From the NCBI GenBank assembly GCA_025062105.1, contig JANXAQ010000064.1, positions 1 to 37,848 of the forward strand: a DNA stretch of 37,848 bases, in the 5' to 3' direction. Under the pieces are notes generated by a model. It was not told the origin of the DNA and made no database searches. It saw only the letters and a program-made list of their open reading frames with translations. The DNA is from Thermoguttaceae bacterium (GTDB lineage: Bacteria > Planctomycetota > Planctomycetia > Pirellulales > Thermoguttaceae). Below, piece after piece: positions 2,774 to 28,620 of the stretch (within the stretch, counting starts at the first letter, position 1; every line of letters starts with the position of its first letter). The translations under genes were made by a program, and so were the position numbers.

Positions 2774-3659
2774 CTTTAGCCTATGTTGGCTATTTTGCCC
2801 ATGGTGTGGTTTTCAAGGTTCTTTTAGAATTTAGCCCTTCTGATGGTGCTCCTGCCGAATCTTAACTTGGGGATAACAGCCACCCATTGGAGGGGATCGG
2901 CAGGTTTCTTCACTCGGCCGAAATGTTACCTGTTTAATTGGTTGGTCAAGCTCAAGGTTCCCACTTGGCAAGTCAACAAGGCATTTTCTTTTGTCGGGCG
3001 GAAATATTTCGTGGTTATAAAATCGACATGCTTGTCGAAAAAGTAACCATTGCCGGGGGACACCGCCCGTTTCCTGCCTCCGAATCGATGGGACTTTTGA
3101 GAAAATGAAGAAGAAAATAAAATGGGGATAACTCTTTTTCTTTGGTATAGTTTAAGTTGGGTCACAGTTCCGTCCAATGGAGTGGGGTTTATTTTTCCCT
3201 CTCCCCTGGCGGGAGAGGGAGAGGCTGATAGAGGAAACGAAATGGCCAACTGTCCTTTTTTGGCCCTGCAGCGGGCATTACCAGAGGTAATGCCGGCCTC
3301 TCCCAGGGAGGGAAGAATCAATTCCTCCCCTCGGCGAAACTATTACCATTTGGCCAACACTTCCGTACCATGGAGTGCTCTAATGGTTCGCCCCCCTTTT
3401 AGCTAGCTATCGACAGGGGCAGGGTCAGGAAAGAAAAGATGGCACGGTGGCCTTTTGGACCCTCGGCAGTTGATACTCTGAACTCTACCAGGCCTCCGGC
3501 TCAGAAAGGAGAAGGCGTTTTGCCGCTTGACTGAAATGTTACTTTGGCATGAAAAATGCAATAAGAGTCTTGGGTCCTCAGGACATTCAAAAGCTCTGAA
3601 TGGTTGTGCCACATCAAGGGCATTCAGGCACAATTCCCATTTCCCGGAAGGGCACCCCT
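2774..3659. other. Long intergenic region with perfect palindromes
   Basis: No credible gene. It holds a perfect 9 bp stem CCCTCTCCC/GGGAGAGGG at 3197-3219 (5 nt loop) and a second perfect 9 bp stem GGCATTACC/GGTAATGCC at 3274-3294 (3 nt loop). Similar phrases TTCCGTCCAATGGAGTG (3169) and TTCCGTACCATGGAGTG (3361) flank both hairpins. Neither stem is followed by a T-run on either strand. This may be a further palindromic repeat unit. Confidence 0.4.
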
Positions 3660-3896
3660 ATGCTAACCGCTTTAGAAGTGGTGGAGAAATACTTTTTAGA
3701 TGTTCGGGCGATGATTTTGGAACTGGCGGCGTTTTTAGACCGATATGACCGGGCGAGGGCGCAAGCAGCCGACTCGCCGCCGGAAGACCCCCGGATGGAA
3801 CTTTTGTATCAGGCCTTGGAAGTTCTGGTTGACCGAAGAGCAACTCCAAATCGAGTAGAACGACTGTTGATGATGTTCTCCGATCCGGCCGAGTAG
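3660..3896 (+). CDS. Small conserved hypothetical protein, 78 aa
   Basis: I do not recognise a named family. The reading frame opens further upstream at 3600, but the ATG at 3660 is preceded by GGAAGGG at a suitable distance and gives a well-formed acidic helical protein (MLTALEVVEKYFLDVRAMIL...). It is rich in Leu, Glu and Arg, with no signal peptide or membrane segment. The predicted helices (about 3-25, 42-57 and 62-73) suggest a small cytoplasmic helical-bundle or partner protein. The codon use looks like that of neighbouring genes rather than of the surrounding repeats, which is why I accept it. It has no operon partner, and its function is unknown. Confidence 0.6.
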   Translation: MLTALEVVEKYFLDVRAMILELAAFLDRYDRARAQAADSPPEDPRMELLYQALEVLVDRRATPNRVERLLMMFSDPAE

Positions 3897-4081
3897 ACGG
3901 GGCCTTTACTCCTGGGAGCCCGGCTGCTAGATGAGCACATTCCCTTTTCTTTGAGGGAAAAGCTCGCCGAGACAGCGGGCTGGTAGGCCAAAGCTTCTGG
4001 GGGAAACTTCACAGGGCAGCAAGGCGTTGGCACATCTTTTGAACCTCACCCATACCCACCCTGGAGGTCATTAGGAAAAGC

Positions 4082-4367: not shown

Positions 4368-4710
4368 GGAACCTCTGCGTAATTTAAAGGAGATATTTTT
4401 ATCTCGACTTTTGCCATTTTAGGCCTTCTCCCGGAAGGGGAAAACTCTAACTGCTTGTAACTATTGGACTTAGGAAATTATGTGAACGAAAGGAAGGCTC
4501 GTCGTAACTACAAGAAACAAAAGGACTTAGGGAAAATGGCAAAAGTCGAGTTTTATGCCATTTTGGCTTACTCTCCCTCTAATACAATATCTAGAGAGAC
4601 TAGCTTACAAGCACCTAATAGATAGTATGCATTTGGATCGAAGTGCCGAACGTCTCAAGAATCAAAAGTTCATAAATTTAACTGCATGTTCAGTATTTTG
4701 CAGCGGTTTC
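4368..4710 (+). repeat. Family B element interrupted by family A
   Basis: The left end is GGAACCTCTGCG and the right end ATTTTGCAGCGGTTTC. A complete family A element occupies 4403-4550. Removing it and one copy of the 6 bp TTTTAT duplication leaves 189 bp, the normal size of a family B element. The family B landmark GATATTTTTAT is the insertion site. Confidence 0.9.
4403..4550 (-). repeat. Family A element, copy 6, inserted in family B
   Basis: 148 bp in inverse orientation, with ends CTCGACTTTTGCCATTTT / AAAATGGCAAAAGTCGAG. TTTTAT directly precedes and directly follows it, a 6 bp target duplication made within the family B sequence ATTTTTATGCC. Confidence 0.93.
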
Positions 4711-15251: not shown

Positions 15252-15505
15252 CTGTACTTTCTGAAAAATTCCCCTTTATGGGGGGTTAAATTGCTCTGGG
15301 GCCGGCTTACCTGCAGCGGCTATCAGCCAGACCCTTTGGGTTGCCTAGCAGCCTAACCTATTGGAAGGCCATAGGTTCCCAGGTTCCATTTTGGTAGGCT
15401 CTTCGGTCAGGGCTTAGAAGTTGGAAATTCTCTTCGGGAACGGCGGCCCGGTGGGGCTAGCTCCATAGCCTCTTCCCCTGAAGAGTGAGTTTGCAGAAAG
15501 GACAG
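15252..15505 (+). repeat. Family C element, copy 1
   Basis: 254 bp bounded by CTGTACTTTCTGAAAAATT and TTTGCAGAAAGGACAG. CCCTCT occurs directly on both sides (15246-15251 and 15506-15511), a 6 bp target duplication. It contains the family landmark AGACCCTTTGGGTTGCCTAG, shared with 25468-25727. The following gap to 15719 has no further feature. Confidence 0.88.
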
Positions 15506-19881: not shown

Positions 19882-21693
19882 ATGGAACGAGATCCATCTT
19901 CTGCAAAGAATAGTTTTGCTGCGTTGCGGGAGCAGGTCGAGCGAACGATTTTGCCTCGAGTCCAGACGCCGGCTCAGTATATTGGCGGGGAGCTGAACGC
20001 CGTGGTGAAATCGCCGGAGGGGCTACGAGGCCGGATGTGCCTTGCCTTTCCGGATGCTTATACCATCGGTATGAGTTGTCATGGCTTGCAAGTTCTGTAT
20101 GCGGCGGTCAATCGGCGGCCGGATTGGGCATGTGAGCGTATTTTTACTCCTGGCCGGGACATGGAAGCCATTCTTCGCCAAGAGGGGATTCCCTTATGGA
20201 GTTTGGAAACCTTTAGCCCGCTTTGGCAATTCGATATTGTGGGCTTCTCCCTGCAATATGAACTTTTAGCTACTAACATCTTGACCATTTTGGATTTGGG
20301 GGGCATTCCGCTTCGGAGTCAGGAGCGTACGGATCGGGATCCCTTAGTCATTGCGGGAGGTCCCTGTGTGCAGAATCCGGAACCTTGGGTGCCATTTATT
20401 GACTTATTTATTCTTGGCGACGGAGAAGAGAGTCTGTTGGAGGTGGCCGACGCGTGGTTAGAAGTCCGTTCCCAAGGGGGAACCCGTCAAGAGAAGCTAG
20501 CCCGTCTAGCGGCTCGATTTGCCTGTGTTTATGTTCCTAGCCTGTACCAGGCGGCCTTGGATGCCGATGGCCGACCGTTGCCGCCAGTGCCGTTTCGGCC
20601 CGAAGCCCGTCCGGTGATCGAACCGGCCGTACTTTTGGATTTGGAAAGTTTTCCTCTACCGACTCGGCCTGTGGTTCCTCATGTGGCCGCTGTGCAGGAC
20701 CGGATTACTTTGGAAATTATGCGGGGCTGTCCGTGGCGGTGCCGGTTCTGCCAAAGCAACCCCATGAAACGTCCTGTGCGGTTCCGTAAAGTAGAAACCA
20801 TCCTTCGGGCCGCCTGGGAATCGTACTGGGCTACCGGCTATAACGAAATTGGTCTTTTGTCCCTTTCGACGAGCGATTATCCATACTTTGATGAGTTGAT
20901 GGATCGTCTTTCGGCGGAGTTTGGTCCGTTGGGGGTGAGCATTTCGGTACCTAGTCTGCGGATTAATCACCAATGGAGGCTTTTGGCGTTGCAGCTGGGC
21001 ACGGAACGGCATTCCGGCCTAACGCTAGCGCCAGAGGCTGCCCGGGACGAAATGCGTCGCCGTATTGGTAAACAAGTTACTAATGATGATCTTTTGGAAG
21101 GATGCCGACAAGCCTTCCAGCGAGGGTTCCATCGGGTAAAACTTTACTTTATGTGTGGTCTGCCTGGCGAAACTGCCCAGGACCTGACGGCCATAGTGGA
21201 CCTAGCGGAGGACATTGCCCGAGTGGGCCGCCAGGTCCGCGGCCGACCGGTTACTGTTGTTGCTAACGTCTCCAACTTCATCCCGAAGCCGCATACTCCG
21301 TTCCAATGGCTCGGTATGGCAAGCCGGGAGTACCTCCAGCAAGCCCATCGTCTGCTTCGCCGCCGGGTCCGACTGCGCAGCGTAGAGATCAAATGTCATG
21401 ATCCGGATGCCAGCCTGCTGGAAGGTCTTATTAGCCGAGGCGACCGCCGACTGGGTGACGTCATCCAATGGGCATGGGAACACGGGGCTCGCTTCGACGC
21501 CTGGACCGATCAGTTTCAGCCCCAGCTTTGGCAAGAGGCCCTCCGGGCCTGTCGGCTAGATCCTGCGCCGCTTTTGCACCAACCCTATCAGCTGGACCGC
21601 CCCTTGCCCTGGGACCATACGACCGTCCGCCAAGGTCGTCAGTACCTCCAGCAGGAATACCTCCAATCCATCGATGTGAACTTGCAACCATAA
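19882..21693 (+). CDS. Radical SAM protein of the TIGR03960 type
   Basis: A 603-residue radical SAM protein. Residues about 50-190 form a Rossmann-like domain at the position of a B12-binding domain (AFPDAYTIGMSCHGLQVLYAAV, FDIVGFSLQYELLATNIL, PLVIAGGPCVQNPEPW), but there is no DxHxxG cobalamin-histidine motif. The [4Fe-4S] motif is C283-PWR-C287-RF-C290, in MRGCPWRCRFCQ, followed by a radical SAM barrel (SVPSLRINH, GLTLAPEAARDEMRRRIGK, VKLYFMCGLPGE). Many bacteria encode this protein next to or fused with a DUF2344 (TIGR03936) protein, often near ribosomal or RNase G genes; no such partner follows here. The substrate is not established, though an RNA- or translation-related modification has been proposed by context. 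The start codon has only a weak GGTGGG ribosome site. Confidence 0.88.
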   Translation: MERDPSSAKNSFAALREQVERTILPRVQTPAQYIGGELNAVVKSPEGLRGRMCLAFPDAYTIGMSCHGLQVLYAAVNRRPDWACERIFTPGRDMEAILRQEGIPLWSLETFSPLWQFDIVGFSLQYELLATNILTILDLGGIPLRSQERTDRDPLVIAGGPCVQNPEPWVPFIDLFILGDGEESLLEVADAWLEVRSQGGTRQEKLARLAARFACVYVPSLYQAALDADGRPLPPVPFRPEARPVIEPAVLLDLESFPLPTRPVVPHVAAVQDRITLEIMRGCPWRCRFCQSNPMKRPVRFRKVETILRAAWESYWATGYNEIGLLSLSTSDYPYFDELMDRLSAEFGPLGVSISVPSLRINHQWRLLALQLGTERHSGLTLAPEAARDEMRRRIGKQVTNDDLLEGCRQAFQRGFHRVKLYFMCGLPGETAQDLTAIVDLAEDIARVGRQVRGRPVTVVANVSNFIPKPHTPFQWLGMASREYLQQAHRLLRRRVRLRSVEIKCHDPDASLLEGLISRGDRRLGDVIQWAWEHGARFDAWTDQFQPQLWQEALRACRLDPAPLLHQPYQLDRPLPWDHTTVRQGRQYLQQEYLQSIDVNLQP

Positions 21694-21931
21694 TCACCAG
21701 CACTTCGGAATCATTCACCCGAACAAATCTTATCCTCCTCTTCTCTCGGCCATACGTATTTACACGTTTTCTAGAGCCTTGCCGCAGCCAGAAGACCGGA
21801 CAAACCGGTATATTGGCGTCGCCTCTGCCCGGCAGCGGAAAAGATCGATTCGCAAAACTTGCCAGCTGAAGGGTAAGCTCAGCGAGCATTCAGAGGAACT
21901 TCAGCATGATTCAATAGAGATATTTTTATAC

Positions 21932-22078
21932 CTCGAGTTTTGCCATTTTTAACTCCTCCCGGAGGGGAAAAGTTCTAACTTCTTGTAAATATTGGAATTA
22001 GGAAATTGAGTGAACAAAAGGCGGTTTCGTCGTAACTCTTGGAAATAAAAGCAGTTAGGAAATTTGGCAAAAGTCGAG
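21932..22078 (-). repeat. Family A element nested in family B
   Basis: 147 bp with ends CTCGAGTTTTGCCATTTTT / AATTTGGCAAAAGTCGAG. TTATAC precedes it (21926-21931) and follows it (22079-22084), a perfect 6 bp target duplication. The insertion site is the same TTTTTATACC motif of family B that is hit at 4403. Confidence 0.94.
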
Positions 22079-22084
22079 TTATAC

Positions 22085-22276
22085 GGAACCCCTGCATAAT
22101 TCGAAAGGGATATTTCTATACCATTTTGTCTGGTATTTTCTCTAACACAACATATAGGGCTGCTAGCATTGCTAGCACCCAATAGATAATAGTAGATGTC
22201 CCGAGAGGAGAATCAACCGGCTAGAGAGTCAAAGGTTCCCAAAGTTCACTATATGTTCAGGATTTTGCAGAGGTTC
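22085..22276 (+). repeat. Family B element nested in another family B
   Basis: 192 bp with ends GGAACCCCTGCATAATTC and GGATTTTGCAGAGGTTCC. It holds the GGGCTGCTAGCATTGCTAGC core. TATAC directly precedes and directly follows it, a 5 bp target duplication in the outer copy. Confidence 0.93.
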
Positions 22277-22492
22277 CTATACCATTTTGGTTCCTTGCCC
22301 GTCTGACCCGATACATTGGGCTGTTAGCAATGCTAGACATACTGCAGGTGTTTGGATGGGGGCAGCAAAAACGTAGAAAAGCGAAGGTTCAGAGAAGTTC
22401 ACTATTTGTTCAGGATTATGCAGAGGTTTCCAGTGGCTAAGGACGTGAAAGAGAAAGAGCAAATGCGCTTATGAGGACAAATGGTTATTTGT

Positions 22493-25387
22493 TTATTTGA
22501 TCTTCTCTTGCCAGCGTTTGAGCCACAGGAGCGCTTCTAGCGGCGGCATTTTGTCCAGGTCCAGCCGTCGCAACTCATCCAGGATCGGATGTTCCATTGG
22601 CTGGAACAGAGTCAGTTGCACGTAGCCGCCAGGGCGGCTGGGGATTTTAGATCGACTGCCCGAACCCGACCGACGGTGGCTGTCGACAGGAGCAGCATCT
22701 TGAGAGGCGGCAGAGAAATGTGGTGTTGTTTGGCTGGGGAAGCCGAGCAATGTTTGCGAGGCAGGCGGTGGTCTATCCGGGGTTTGAGCTTCGGGGCAAG
22801 CTTCCAGCCTGTCTTCCGGCGGCAGAGCTTGGGCCGGGAAAACCCCACCCGGACTTTGAGCTTCGGGGCAAGCAATCGGCTCCGTCGGGTGTTGTTCTCC
22901 AATTGGGGAAGTTGGTGGGCTAAGAGTGGTCCAGGCGGCCGTTTCGGCGGCCAGACGCTCATCTTCCAGTTGCACCAGGACATCTTTGGCCCGTTCGATG
23001 ATCGGCCGAGGCACCCCGGCCAATCGGGCCACATGAATGCCGTAGCTTTTATCCGCCGCTCCTGGCAGGATTTTATGGAGGAAGATGACCTCGTCTTGCC
23101 ATTCTCGGACCGCCACATTCAGGTTCATGACGCCGGGCAGGTGTCGTTCCAGGTCGGTCAATTCATGGTAATGGGTGGCAAAGAGCGTTCGGCACTGGAT
23201 GCGATCATGTAGGTACTCGGCCACCGCCCAGGCCAGCGAGATGCCGTCGTAGGTGCTAGTACCTCGGCCGATCTCGTCTAGGACAACCAAACTCCTCCGG
23301 GTGGCCAAGTGGCAGATGCGGGCTGTTTCGGTCATTTCGACCATGAAGGTGCTTTGGCCTCGGGCTAATTCGTCGCTTGCACCGACGCGTGCAAAAATCC
23401 GGTCGGCCACGCCGATGACGGCCTCCTTGGCCGGGATGAAGCTGCCGGTCTGGGCCAAAAGTACCAGGAGGGCGACCTGACGAATATACGTACTTTTACC
23501 TGCCATATTGGGTCCGGTTACCAGGGCAATCGTTTTACCTTCGCCCATGCCGACGCCCAGTTCCGTGTCGTTGGGCACAAAGGCCCCTTCTGGTTCCAGG
23601 ATGTCTAGGACCGGATGACGGCCATCTCGGATCAGAAGGATTGGTTCTTCGACCAATCGAGGTCGGCAGTAGTTGCGCTGGCGTGCAAGTTCTGCCAGAG
23701 CGGCCACCACATCCAGTTGGGCCAAAGCGGCGGCAGTCTGCTGCAATCGGGCTCTGGCCGCCGACGCCTCCTCTCGCAACTGACAAAACAGTTCATATTC
23801 CAAAGCCCGTGCCTTTTCGTCGGCCGTTAGCACCCGCTCCTCGTACTGCTTGAGTTCCGGCGTAATGAAGCGCTCGGCGTTTTTGAGCGTCTGTTTGCGG
23901 ATGTAATCCTCAGGGATTTTATCCCGATGGGTGTTGGTTACTTCGATGTAATAGCCGAACACTTTGTTAAACCCCACTTTCAGGGTGGGGATACCCGTCC
24001 GCTGGATCTCATGTGCTTGATACTGGGCAATCCATTGTTTACCGCCCTGGGCTAGATCGCGCAGTTCATCCAATTCTGGACAAAAGCCTGTGCGGATGAA
24101 ACCACCCTCTCGGCTGCTCAATGGACAATCTTCCACCAAGGCAGCGTCCAGTTTGGTCTGTAGCTCCAGGCAAGGGTCAATGCTGGACTGGATCTGTTGC
24201 AACAGGCGGCTTGTGCGGCCAGCTAGCTTGAGCTCTAATTCCGGCAGCATCCGGAGCGTCTTGGCCAGGAAGCTCAGGTCCCTTGGGGTTGCCCGGCCGG
24301 TGGTGATGCGGGCTAAAAGGCGCTCCAAGTCATAAACCCGTTGGAGCGATTCCCGGAGTGCATTGCGCAGCCGATCGGCCTGGTACAGTTCTTCGACGGC
24401 ATCCAGACGCTGGTTGATAGCGGCAATATCGGTTAGCGGACTAGAAAGCCACTCAGCCCAGAGCCGAGCCCCCATCGGTGTAACCGTGCGGTCCAACACG
24501 GCGGCCAGCGATCCTTCCCGTCGGCCTTCGCGCAAGGTGCGGGTTATCTCCAGGCTTCGGCGGGTCGATTGGTCAATCTCCAGCACACTGCCCCGGCGAT
24601 AGGGCAGCAGCCGATCCAGGTGCGCTAACGATGTCTTCTGGGTTTCGGTCAGATAGTCCAAGATGGCCCCGGCGGCCCGGATGGCTTGCCGATCTTCCGG
24701 GCTGTCGGTAAAACCGAATCCTTCCAGGCTGTGCAGGCCGAAATGTTTTCGCAGGATCTGGCAGGCCGTCTCCCAATTAAACGCCCAGGGCGGCCGACGG
24801 GTAAGCATCATCCGGTGCTGATCGGCGCCGGCAGGCAAAGCTTCGCCCTCGGCCAGCAGGCATTCCGACGGCCCAATCCGGGCCAATTGGTCTGCAAGTT
24901 CCCCCCTAGGAAATGCAGCCGCCTGGAACCGGCCGGTCGATAGCTCCACCCAAGCCAAACCAGCCGGCTCCCCAGGGCTGATGGCTGCCAAATAGTTGCT
25001 CGAGCGGGGGTCCAGCAGGGTCTCTTCGGTAATAGTGCCGGCCGTTACTACCCGGGTGATCTCTCGACGAACCAGCCCCTTGGCCAATTTAGGGTCTTCT
25101 ACCTGCTCGCAGACAGCCACCCGAAGACCTGCCGAAATAAGCTTGGCCAAGTAATGCTCCAATTGATGATGCGGAAAGCCGGCCATGGGGATGGCGTTTT
25201 CGCCTTTTTCCCGGCTAGTAAGGGCCAGGTTCAGTAGGCGGGCGGCCGTTTTGGCGTCCTCATAGAAAAGCTCGTAAAAATCCCCCATCCGAAACAGCAA
25301 CAAAGCATCCCCACAGGCCCGCTTGGCCTCCTGATATTGCCGCATCATCGGCGTAAGCGACTCGTAGGCTCCATGCATACCCTCCAT
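22493..25387 (-). CDS. mutS: DNA mismatch repair protein MutS
   Basis: Full-length MutS1, 964 residues (typical 850-880). The mismatch-contacting motif F37-Y38-E39 lies in GDFYELF; then follow connector, lever and clamp regions and the ATPase with Walker [10 protein letters not shown] (about 622-632), [20 protein letters not shown] and [15 protein letters not shown]. The excess length is a Pro/Ser/Gln-rich linker at about 820-918 between the ATPase and the final helices, which includes the repeated peptide ACPEAQ(S/T)P. Just after it comes QLTLF (924-928), which fits the sliding-clamp binding consensus. No mutL is nearby. The start at 25387 has weak ribosome-site support; the in-frame ATG three codons later is possible. 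Confidence 0.97.
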
Positions 25388-25467: not shown

Positions 25468-25727
25468 CTGTAGTTTCTGAAAAAATCCCCTTTATCGGGA
25501 TTAACTTGCCTTGACTTCGGCTTGCCTTCATCGGCTACCAGCCCAGACCCTTTGGGTTGCCTAGGAGCCTAACCTGTTGGAAAGCCATAGGCTAAGAGTA
25601 GATGTGCCATGTTGGTTAGGGTCTTCGGGCAGGGTGTAGAAGTTGGCCATTCCCTTTGGGAAGGGCGGACCGTTTGGGCTGGCTCCATCACTTATCCCCA
25701 CAAAGAGCGATTTTGCAGAAAGTACAG
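25468..25727 (+). repeat. Family C element, copy 2
   Basis: 260 bp with ends CTGTAGTTTCTGAAAAAAT and GATTTTGCAGAAAGTACAG. It shares the AGACCCTTTGGGTTGCCTAG block and GGTCTTCGGGCAGGG with copy 1. Unlike copies 1 and 3 it has no target duplication: a family G fragment abuts the left side and a family B fragment the right side. Confidence 0.88.
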
Positions 25728-26010: not shown

Positions 26011-28620
26011 TTACACAATCTCGCAGGAGGGATATGCTTTTCGCAATCTGTGCAAGGCTCTTCGGCCCAATCGGTTCTCTCCGAGCTCTAGTGTCCATAA
26101 GTTTTTCAACCCATTTAGAAGCCTCTCTAGACCTGCCCTAGAGACTCGGACACCTTTAAGTTGGAGTTCTTCCAACTTTTTCAGGCCGGTTAAATAACGG
26201 AGGCCCGCATCGCTGATCCAGGTGTACGAAAGATCCAACTGTTTCAACCTTTTCAGACCGCCAAGATGGACCAATCCAGCGTCTGTAATTCGGGTTCTCG
26301 AAAGGACCAGCCGTTGCAGGTTTTTCAGTCGGGCCAACTCCGCCAGCCCTGCGTCGGTAATCTGACTCCTCCCAAGATCCAGATACCGCAAGTTTCTCAG
26401 TTTTCTTAAATAGATTAATCCCCTATCTGTAATTTGGGTGGTGGCCAGGTCCAGGTAGCGCAATTTTCCCAGGCCTGCCAGATGCACTAGACCCGCATCG
26501 GTGATCCGAGGGGCTGAAAGTACTAAAAATTCCAAGTCTTTTAAGTCGGCCAAGTATCGTAGGCCTTCGTCGGTAATCTGGGTGCCGGAAAGCCATAGCT
26601 CTTGCAAGTTTTGTAGATCTGCCAAGTGCTTTAATCCTGCATCGGTGATAGGGAGTTGGCAAAGGTTCAGCTTTTGCAACGTTTTCCGTCCTGCCAGATG
26701 CTCCAGGCCTGCATCAGTGATCTTCCAGGCAAATGGCTCCCCTAGTGTCAGTTCCTGAGGTTCTTGGGTGGCGGCCAAGTAATGTTTTAATCCGACATCC
26801 GTTTTTGCGGACTCAGGCAACACCACCCAGTGCAGTTTCAGACCGGCCAATTGGGCAAGGCCGGCATCGGTAATCTGGGTATCAGAAAGGTTCAGCCACT
26901 CTAATTGTTTTAGCCCGGCCAAATACTTTAGCCCCCCATCGGTAATTCGGTCTCGCCACAGACAGAGACGTTTTAATTTTTTCAATTCTGCCAAGTAGGC
27001 CAGACCCGCATCGGTGATTCGGGTTTCAGAAACGCTTAACTCCTCTAGACTTTTCAGCTTCGCCAGATGCTTTAAGCCTACGTCGGTAAGAGGGGTGGAA
27101 TAAAGCTCCAGCGATTTCAAATGTTGCAGCCTAGCTAGATACTTTAGGCCCGGCCCTCTGATCCGGGTGCCCGTAAGGTCCAGCTTTTGTAAGGTGTTCA
27201 GCCCTGCTAGATGCCTTAGCCCTTCGTCGGTGATTTGCTTCGGAAGAGTAAGCTTCTGGATGTTTTTCAGTCCGGTCAAATAGGCCAGTCCCGTATTGGT
27301 AATCTTCCACCAGAATAGGTTCAATTCGGTAGGTTCTTCTACGGCGGCCAGATAGTATTTCAAACCAAGGTTGGTACAGATACTGTGGGGAATTTCTAGA
27401 GTTTTTAGGTCCATCTTCGCTAGATGCCTCAGACCAGCAGCAGTAATTTTCGTCCCGGAAAGCCTCAAATATTTCAGGTTTTTCAGCGCTGCTAAATAGC
27501 GTAGGCCTTGGTTCGTTACGGGGCAGGATTGCAGCCCCAAAGACTGCAATTTGTCCAAGCCAGTCAAATACCTCAGGCCTTGGTCAGTTATCGGTGTTAA
27601 GGAAAGGTCCAAGTCCTTCAAAGCTTTCATCCCTATTAGATACCGCAAGCCCGGACCGGTGATTTTCGTACCAGTGAGAATGAGCCGCTGCAGGTTTTTT
27701 AACCCGGCTAAATACGATAGGCCAGCGTCCGTAATTTCCGTGTGAGAAAGGTTCAGAGCCGTTAATTGGGTGAGGTCAGCCAGGTGTTTCAGGGCGGCAT
27801 CCGTGATTTTAGTAGAGGAAAGCTTCAGATGCTGTAAATTTTTTAGCCCTGCTAAGAAGGCCACACGCCTAGGGGTAATTCGGGTATGGGAAAGGTCCAG
27901 ATGCTGCAATGTTTTGAGTCTGGCCAAGAGGTTGATCGCGGTATTACCGATCCGCCCCCAGGAAAGGGCCAGTCCTCGCAACTGCGCTAACCCGGCCACG
28001 TGCTTTAGGCCTCGATCGGTGATGTTTGTCTCGGAAAGGTCCAGCCATCTCAACTGCTTCAGTCCAGCTAGATGCTCTATGCCCGCATCCGTAATCTGAG
28101 TATGCGAAAGGTCCAACCCTCGCAGTTGTTTTAGTCGAGCCACCTGCCTAAGCCCGGCGTCGGTAATCCAAGTGCGGGCAAGCTCCAGGTACTGTAAGTT
28201 TTTTAGCCAACCTACATATCCCAGCCCCACATCCGTCAATCGAACACCAACCACCACACGCCACCGGCAGATCGGGCCTAGCCGGAGCACCCGTAAACTG
28301 CTCAGGTGGGTCAGTTCTCGAACGGTGGCATTAGTAATTTCGATTTGGCTAAGGTCTAAGGCAAAGGGCCCAGCAGGCGACGGCAGACTCCTCAGCCAAC
28401 CCTCTTCCCACTCCCGAGCTCGAAAGGCTGGAAGAATTTCAACCTCCTGGGGGGAAGCCCCTGGAAGATTTTGGAGGGCTTCATGTTGGGAGGTAGCAAA
28501 TCTGCCGACCATCCCTCGGCCGGTATCCCAGGCCAGCCAGCCTACTTCGGCACCTCCTTCCTGCCAGGCCTGCAGAATTGCTTCCGGAAGTGGTTTGGAC
28601 AACGTATCCCCATCCCTCAT
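26011..28620 (-). CDS. Giant leucine-rich-repeat protein, 869 aa
   Basis: After an N-terminal part of about 95 residues without a recognisable domain, nearly the whole protein consists of about 30 leucine-rich repeats of 24 residues. The consensus is ITDAGLxxLAGLKxLQxLxLSxT, of the Cys-free, GALA/RI-like bacterial type seen in many planctomycetes. No signal peptide, membrane segment or sorting signal is visible, so a cytoplasmic protein-binding scaffold is the simplest view. Two atypical units (near residues 420 and 611: YYLAAVEEP and HYLAATQEP) are 191 codons apart, which shows that a block of eight repeats was duplicated. GGGAGG lies 8 nt before the ATG. The partner is unknown. Confidence 0.9.
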   Translation of the reverse strand: MRDGDTLSKPLPEAILQAWQEGGAEVGWLAWDTGRGMVGRFATSQHEALQNLPGASPQEVEILPAFRAREWEEGWLRSLPSPAGPFALDLSQIEITNATVRELTHLSSLRVLRLGPICRWRVVVGVRLTDVGLGYVGWLKNLQYLELARTWITDAGLRQVARLKQLRGLDLSHTQITDAGIEHLAGLKQLRWLDLSETNITDRGLKHVAGLAQLRGLALSWGRIGNTAINLLARLKTLQHLDLSHTRITPRRVAFLAGLKNLQHLKLSSTKITDAALKHLADLTQLTALNLSHTEITDAGLSYLAGLKNLQRLILTGTKITGPGLRYLIGMKALKDLDLSLTPITDQGLRYLTGLDKLQSLGLQSCPVTNQGLRYLAALKNLKYLRLSGTKITAAGLRHLAKMDLKTLEIPHSICTNLGLKYYLAAVEEPTELNLFWWKITNTGLAYLTGLKNIQKLTLPKQITDEGLRHLAGLNTLQKLDLTGTRIRGPGLKYLARLQHLKSLELYSTPLTDVGLKHLAKLKSLEELSVSETRITDAGLAYLAELKKLKRLCLWRDRITDGGLKYLAGLKQLEWLNLSDTQITDAGLAQLAGLKLHWVVLPESAKTDVGLKHYLAATQEPQELTLGEPFAWKITDAGLEHLAGRKTLQKLNLCQLPITDAGLKHLADLQNLQELWLSGTQITDEGLRYLADLKDLEFLVLSAPRITDAGLVHLAGLGKLRYLDLATTQITDRGLIYLRKLRNLRYLDLGRSQITDAGLAELARLKNLQRLVLSRTRITDAGLVHLGGLKRLKQLDLSYTWISDAGLRYLTGLKKLEELQLKGVRVSRAGLERLLNGLKNLWTLELGENRLGRRALHRLRKAYPSCEIV

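Follow-up and report, generated by a model that had tools for sequence, protein, structure and literature searches.

The window analysed here is a 37,848-nucleotide stretch of the genome of a Thermoguttaceae bacterium (the source genome). In it, a B12-binding radical SAM protein gene and a convergent mutS gene enclose a composite of short repeats belonging to two families, A and B (Table 1). Sequence inspection and nhmmer boundaries showed that one B copy, the outer B (21895-22431), is broken after base 37 by an A element and a younger, inner B. The A element is flanked by the target-site duplication (TSD) TTATAC, while the inner B uses the last five bases of A's right duplication as its own left TSD. 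No Rfam family matched the window.

Table 1. Features of the composite, its neighbouring genes and a second nested copy in the window
Feature	Position	Strand	Evidence and remarks
Second nested composite, A (4403-4550) inside B	4369-4710	+	TSD TTTTAT; same AT-rich B stretch
Upstream neighbour gene, TIGR03960 B12-binding radical SAM protein	19882-21693	+	NCBIfam, 612 bits
Outer (oldest) B, left part	21895-21931	+	nhmmer, B profile, model positions 1-36; starts GGAACTTCAGCA; last letters TTTTTATAC, ending with target TTATAC
TSD TTATAC, left copy flanking A	21926-21931	+	Sequence; genome-wide A TSD statistics
A element, 147 bp	21932-22078	+	nhmmer, 135.3 bits; terminal inverted repeat CTCGAGTTTTGCC...GGCAAAAGTCGAG
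TSD TTATAC, right copy of A; last five bases are also the left TSD of inner B	22079-22084	+	Sequence
Inner (young) B, 193 bp	22085-22277	+	nhmmer, 197.8 bits; terminal inverted repeat GGAACCCCTGCA...GCAGAGGTTCC
TSD TATAC, right copy of inner B	22278-22282	+	Sequence
Outer B, right part	22283-22431	+	nhmmer alignment, model positions 37-189; ends GCAGAGGTTTCC
Downstream convergent neighbour gene, DNA mismatch repair protein MutS	22493-25387	-	NCBIfam, 1074 bits

We then rejoined the outer B by cutting out A, the inner B and the additional copy of each TSD. The resulting 186-bp sequence matched the B profile end to end (model positions 1-189, 122.9 bits, E 3e-39). This profile was derived from full-length copies retrieved by BLAST with the inner B as the query; the outer copy, being split, was not long enough to enter this set. 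The left half covers the model as far as position 36 and the right half picks up at the next one, position 37, indicating that both halves are one B copy. An initial annotation of this DNA had described an outer B cut by an A (TSD TTATAC) and by a second B (TSD TATAC), and this architecture was borne out; its concern that the outer halves might come from different B copies is answered by their contiguity in the profile. The excised length it gave, 187 bp, proved to be 186 bp, while its equation of the remainder with a normal B agrees with the full profile match. What it called a three-layer nest is instead one host copy with two inserts at one point. The outer B has no recognisable TSD (flanks CAGA and AGTG), as might be expected of an old copy.

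Both families are spread genome-wide. Family A elements are about 148 bp long with the terminal inverted repeat CTCGACTTTTGCC and TSDs of 5-7 bp, and family B elements are about 190 bp long with the terminal inverted repeat GGAACCTCTGCA and TSDs of 4-5 bp. Searching 1.33 Mb of the source genome with the profiles returned 574 A and 505 B matches. Among 203 aligned A and 159 aligned B copies, the terminal repeat columns were about 84-99% conserved, and similarity was lost immediately outside the ends, apart from a preference of A for CTWAG targets. For B, a 4-bp TSD was found in 59 of the 159 copies, against 2.0 expected from shuffled pairing, and a 5-bp TSD in six. For A, TSDs of 5 bp (66 of 203 copies, 12 expected from shuffled pairing), 6 bp (10 copies, 0.1 expected) and 7 bp (8 copies) were found. 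The excess over shuffled pairs in both families indicates that the TSDs are not due to chance. The TATAC and TTATAC of the composite are each one base longer than the usual TSD of their family (4 bp for B and 5 bp for A), and these lengths represent minority classes that occur elsewhere in both families. A and B are non-autonomous MITE-type elements: both are short (below about 500 bp) with terminal inverted repeats, duplicate their target (5 bp for A and 4 bp for B), are too short at about 148 and 190 bp to hold a transposase gene of their own, and have ends in common with an autonomous partner in the genome.

Nesting of these elements is frequent. Besides the composite, the 1.33 Mb contained about 29 B-in-B, 18 B-in-A, 13 A-in-A and 9 A-in-B copies with the same kind of TSD-flanked structure, one of them in the same window (Table 1). 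The initial annotation had noted that both inserts hit the same motif; their common TTTTTATACC target was confirmed, and insertions into further copies were found there as well. Five of the ten A-in-B insertions, including that of the composite, lie at model positions 31-41 (binomial 1e-4), and nine of the 30 B-in-B insertions at positions 23-41 (0.002); the test was defined after the positions were known, and these post hoc p-values are descriptive. A preference for AT-rich targets would explain this hot spot.

The TSD-flanked structure of the other nested copies also bears on whether the composite is the product of two insertions or of repeat copies that recombined or were misassembled. A draft metagenome assembly of 345 contigs with many near-identical repeats gives occasion for such errors, but exact TSDs on both inserts and exact contiguity of the host copy would be unexpected from misjoining, and we find this explanation scarcely credible. 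Alternatively, A and the inner B could already have been joined when they entered, by one insertion with the TSD TATAC, which would fit the outermost TATAC duplication on both sides. In that case the agreement of the middle TTATAC with the host target would be a coincidence, unless it stemmed from the same site of another B. Moreover, the junction GTCGAGTTATACGGAACC of the composite occurs exactly once in the source genome, with no second instance at 0 or 1 mismatch, and A and B differ in their ends and candidate transposases, which makes joint arrival very unlikely. The junction is also absent from G001 and G002, two sister species of the source genome.

Given two separate insertions into one host copy, we examined their order and age. 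The inner B is a high-scoring copy, with only 9% of 294 full B copies scoring above it and a closest other copy that is 96% identical; 20% of 403 full A copies score above the A of the composite. The outer B falls in the lower third of its family, with 69% of the full B copies above it. The outer B would thus be the oldest of the three elements, as the nesting requires and the divergence is consistent with. If A came first and the inner B entered A's right TSD copy, the product would be TTATAC-A-TTATAC-B-TATAC; if the inner B came first and A entered its left TSD copy, the product would be identical. The junctions therefore fit either sequence of arrival for A and the inner B, and of the order of events claimed in the initial annotation only the seniority of the outer B stands. 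A true three-layer nest was found at another locus (L124, positions 3413-3949, G000:C304), where a B holds a B that is itself cut by an A in its TTTTTATACC stretch; there the order of events is fixed by the layering.

We further compared the locus with related genomes, as the initial annotation had proposed. Among 30 genomes, A and B were confined to the source genus. G001 carries both families at about 67-88% identity, and G002 carries one B. An exact scan of GTDB genomes for the B core gave no match, and by its MutS relatives the source genome sits beside uncultured Thermoguttaceae. In G001, the same TIGR03960 radical SAM/mutS pair encloses a single B on the opposite strand, abutting the mutS stop, without A. 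Outside the genes and this B, the intergenic region of G001 could not be aligned with the source locus, and the G001 B is, judging from these sequences, an independent insertion. This shows that the composite is not conserved, contrary to the alternative considered at the outset that all relatives share it, and supplies no empty site. The DNA retrieved downstream of mutS in G002 matched neither the radical SAM end nor A or B, and no empty-site or single-insertion allele was found in G001 or G002. The same comparison bears on the suggestion that, instead of being left behind by transposition, the composite is a functional structure conserved between the two genes, such as a bidirectional terminator. 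Its location between convergent genes and the strong single-strand folding of the family consensus sequences (z about -6.0 for A and -5.7 for B) are compatible with such a role, but any MITE forms hairpins by virtue of its terminal repeats, A and B occur hundreds of times elsewhere, and between the same genes G001 has no A and a single B, which is oppositely oriented. We therefore regard a functional structure as extremely unlikely.

Candidate mobilisers were sought in three ways. Looking in the first 0.71 Mb for A or B ends paired at a transposon-like distance turned up just neighbouring MITEs or host genes, and ORF clustering in 1.7 Mb revealed no multicopy transposases; a PF01609 family search over whole genomes was successful. 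For A, we identified a 1,611-bp insertion sequence (L190, contig C130) with an intact 542-codon frame and the ends CTCGACTTTTGCCATTTTT, starting at position 705, with an inverted copy ending at 2315. Its transposase passes the NCBIfam IS701 model NF049999 (251.1 bits, cut-off 170) and matches Pfam DDE_5 (83.6 bits). Homology to a decayed relative in C259 and to right-end relics in C52 and C156 stops at the ends of L190. Its flanks, CTTAG and CTAAA, are similar and non-identical, with a second element directly beyond the right flank. Since the intact insertion sequence and its relics carry A's terminal repeats, an IS701-family transposase most likely moves A in trans. L190 resembles IS701-family insertion sequences in passing NF049999 and also bears A's ends, whereas A itself is non-coding and has a very high copy number. 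IS701 targets are short and of YTAR type, with which the CTWAG preference of A is compatible. The term IS701 is absent from the 2024 MITE review (PMC10969869). A decayed multicopy IS5-type group with the ends AGCGTGTTTGAAAAG (L164, L169-L173, L175-L176, L179-L180 and L182-L189), of which several copies have internal stop codons, also lies beside CTWAG sites; its ends differ from those of A, and L190 was preferred as the partner.

For B, IS5-family elements with the left ends GGAACCTCTGAATAATTC, of which 17 of 18 positions are as in B, and right ends ATTTATTCAGAGGTTCC or nearly so were found in the source genome (L167) and in G002 (L161). The transposases of L161 and L167 pass the NCBIfam IS5_4 model NF033581 with 304 and 261 bits (cut-off 140). 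Further copies of this left end have the first 18 bp of B exactly, and five of them run off their contigs within 230-550 bp, as would be expected if near-identical IS5-type masters had collapsed in assembly. The near-complete copies lack a matching 4-bp TSD (AATA/ATAG for L167 and CTCT/TATA for L161), whereas B copies have 4-bp TSDs; we treated the TSD as supporting rather than family-defining for IS5, because its length varies within the family. Since these insertion sequences carry B's terminal repeats, IS5-family transposases most likely move B, which shares only its ends with them. C56, the sole full-length IS5-type ORF assembled in the source genome, is scrambled over a stretch close to its C-terminal catalytic motif, and its transposase may be inactive. 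B may no longer be moving, or working IS5-type copies may have collapsed in the draft assembly.

Taken together, we consider it very probable that the composite is a MITE cluster in which an old B was struck successively by an A and a B, moved by IS701- and IS5-family transposases. An old B copy would first have settled between the radical SAM gene and mutS, and the younger A and second B would then have struck its AT-rich stretch one after the other, the target being duplicated at each insertion (TTATAC for A and TATAC for the inner B). The initial annotation held that the locus proves the mobility of both families. Past mobility is well supported by the TSDs, the precise interruption of the host copy and the probable mobilising insertion sequences; "proves" is too strong a word for evidence drawn from sequence. 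As a record of mini-transposons inserting repeatedly, the composite is clean; as a product of two busy families of MITEs it is ordinary, and its interest stems from the surrounding genome.

To estimate the genome-wide load, we sampled the first 20 kb of each of 39 contigs in numerical order (C1-C45, leaving out six that had previously been fetched for other reasons; 428 kb). The sample contained 137 A and 113 B pieces (E<=1e-5), covering 8.5% of its bases (95% bootstrap by contig 7.0-10.1%), and its reversed control contained none. Extrapolated to the genome, this amounts to about 1,900 pieces of A and 1,600 of B, a density that accounts for the frequent nesting. Bases with three or more matches elsewhere made up 15.8% of the sample, indicating that other short repeats are nearly as abundant as A and B together. 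According to the 2024 MITE review, a MITE content of 8-10% is unseen in prokaryotes (PMC10969869), and the load of A and B (about 8.5%) exceeds any prokaryote value given there, although the literature compared was open-access and a higher published value could exist. The combined content of insertion sequences and MITEs can be higher in other bacteria, at as much as 40% in Orientia (PMC3852290); what stands out here is therefore the share of MITEs. We think it reasonably likely that this genome bears a plant-like MITE load, with two IS701- and IS5-linked families at about 8.5%, all repeats at about 16%, and mutual insertions recording the relative history of their bursts. Nested copies could serve to reconstruct the order of transposition bursts, and the two named candidate transposases are open to test.

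MITEAba12 of Acinetobacter is a MITE derived from the IS5 family. B resembles such elements in being short, non-coding and intergenic, with short TSDs and with terminal inverted repeats like those of an IS5-family insertion sequence in the same genome. Copies of MITEAba12 number 1-22 per genome (PMC10969869), against an extrapolated figure of roughly 1,600 pieces for B in the source genome. In features, A and B are also like the Correia elements of Neisseria, ERIC, QMITE2 and the Chunjie MITEs, all of which are high-copy intergenic mini-elements with inverted repeats. The reported copies of these elements are fewer (Correia >120, ERIC up to 711, QMITE2 78 and Chunjie about 95; PMC10969869). 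A nesting comparable to the A/B composite is known from Coxiella, where IS1111 is inserted into QMITE2 copies (PMC10969869).

Further short repeat families were seen in unselected contigs (L101-L120 and L309-L328), among them CTWAGAGGCTGTC (about 170 bp), GCTCGCTGTTATACACA (about 300 bp), CTGTACTTTCCGAAAAATTCC (about 260 bp) and TGGCTCTGTTGAAACC (130-290 bp). About a quarter of full A copies adjoin a CTWAGAGGCTGTC end, as if preferring the duplicated target of that family. In the window, two 49-bp repeats (CCAGACCCTTTGGGTTGCCTAGCAGCC..., positions 15327-15375 and 25543-25591) are 94% identical and resemble part of a further repeat family, and positions 26011-28620 encode a leucine-rich-repeat-like protein of 869 aa, in whose coding sequence a 72-bp unit occurs at least 17 times.
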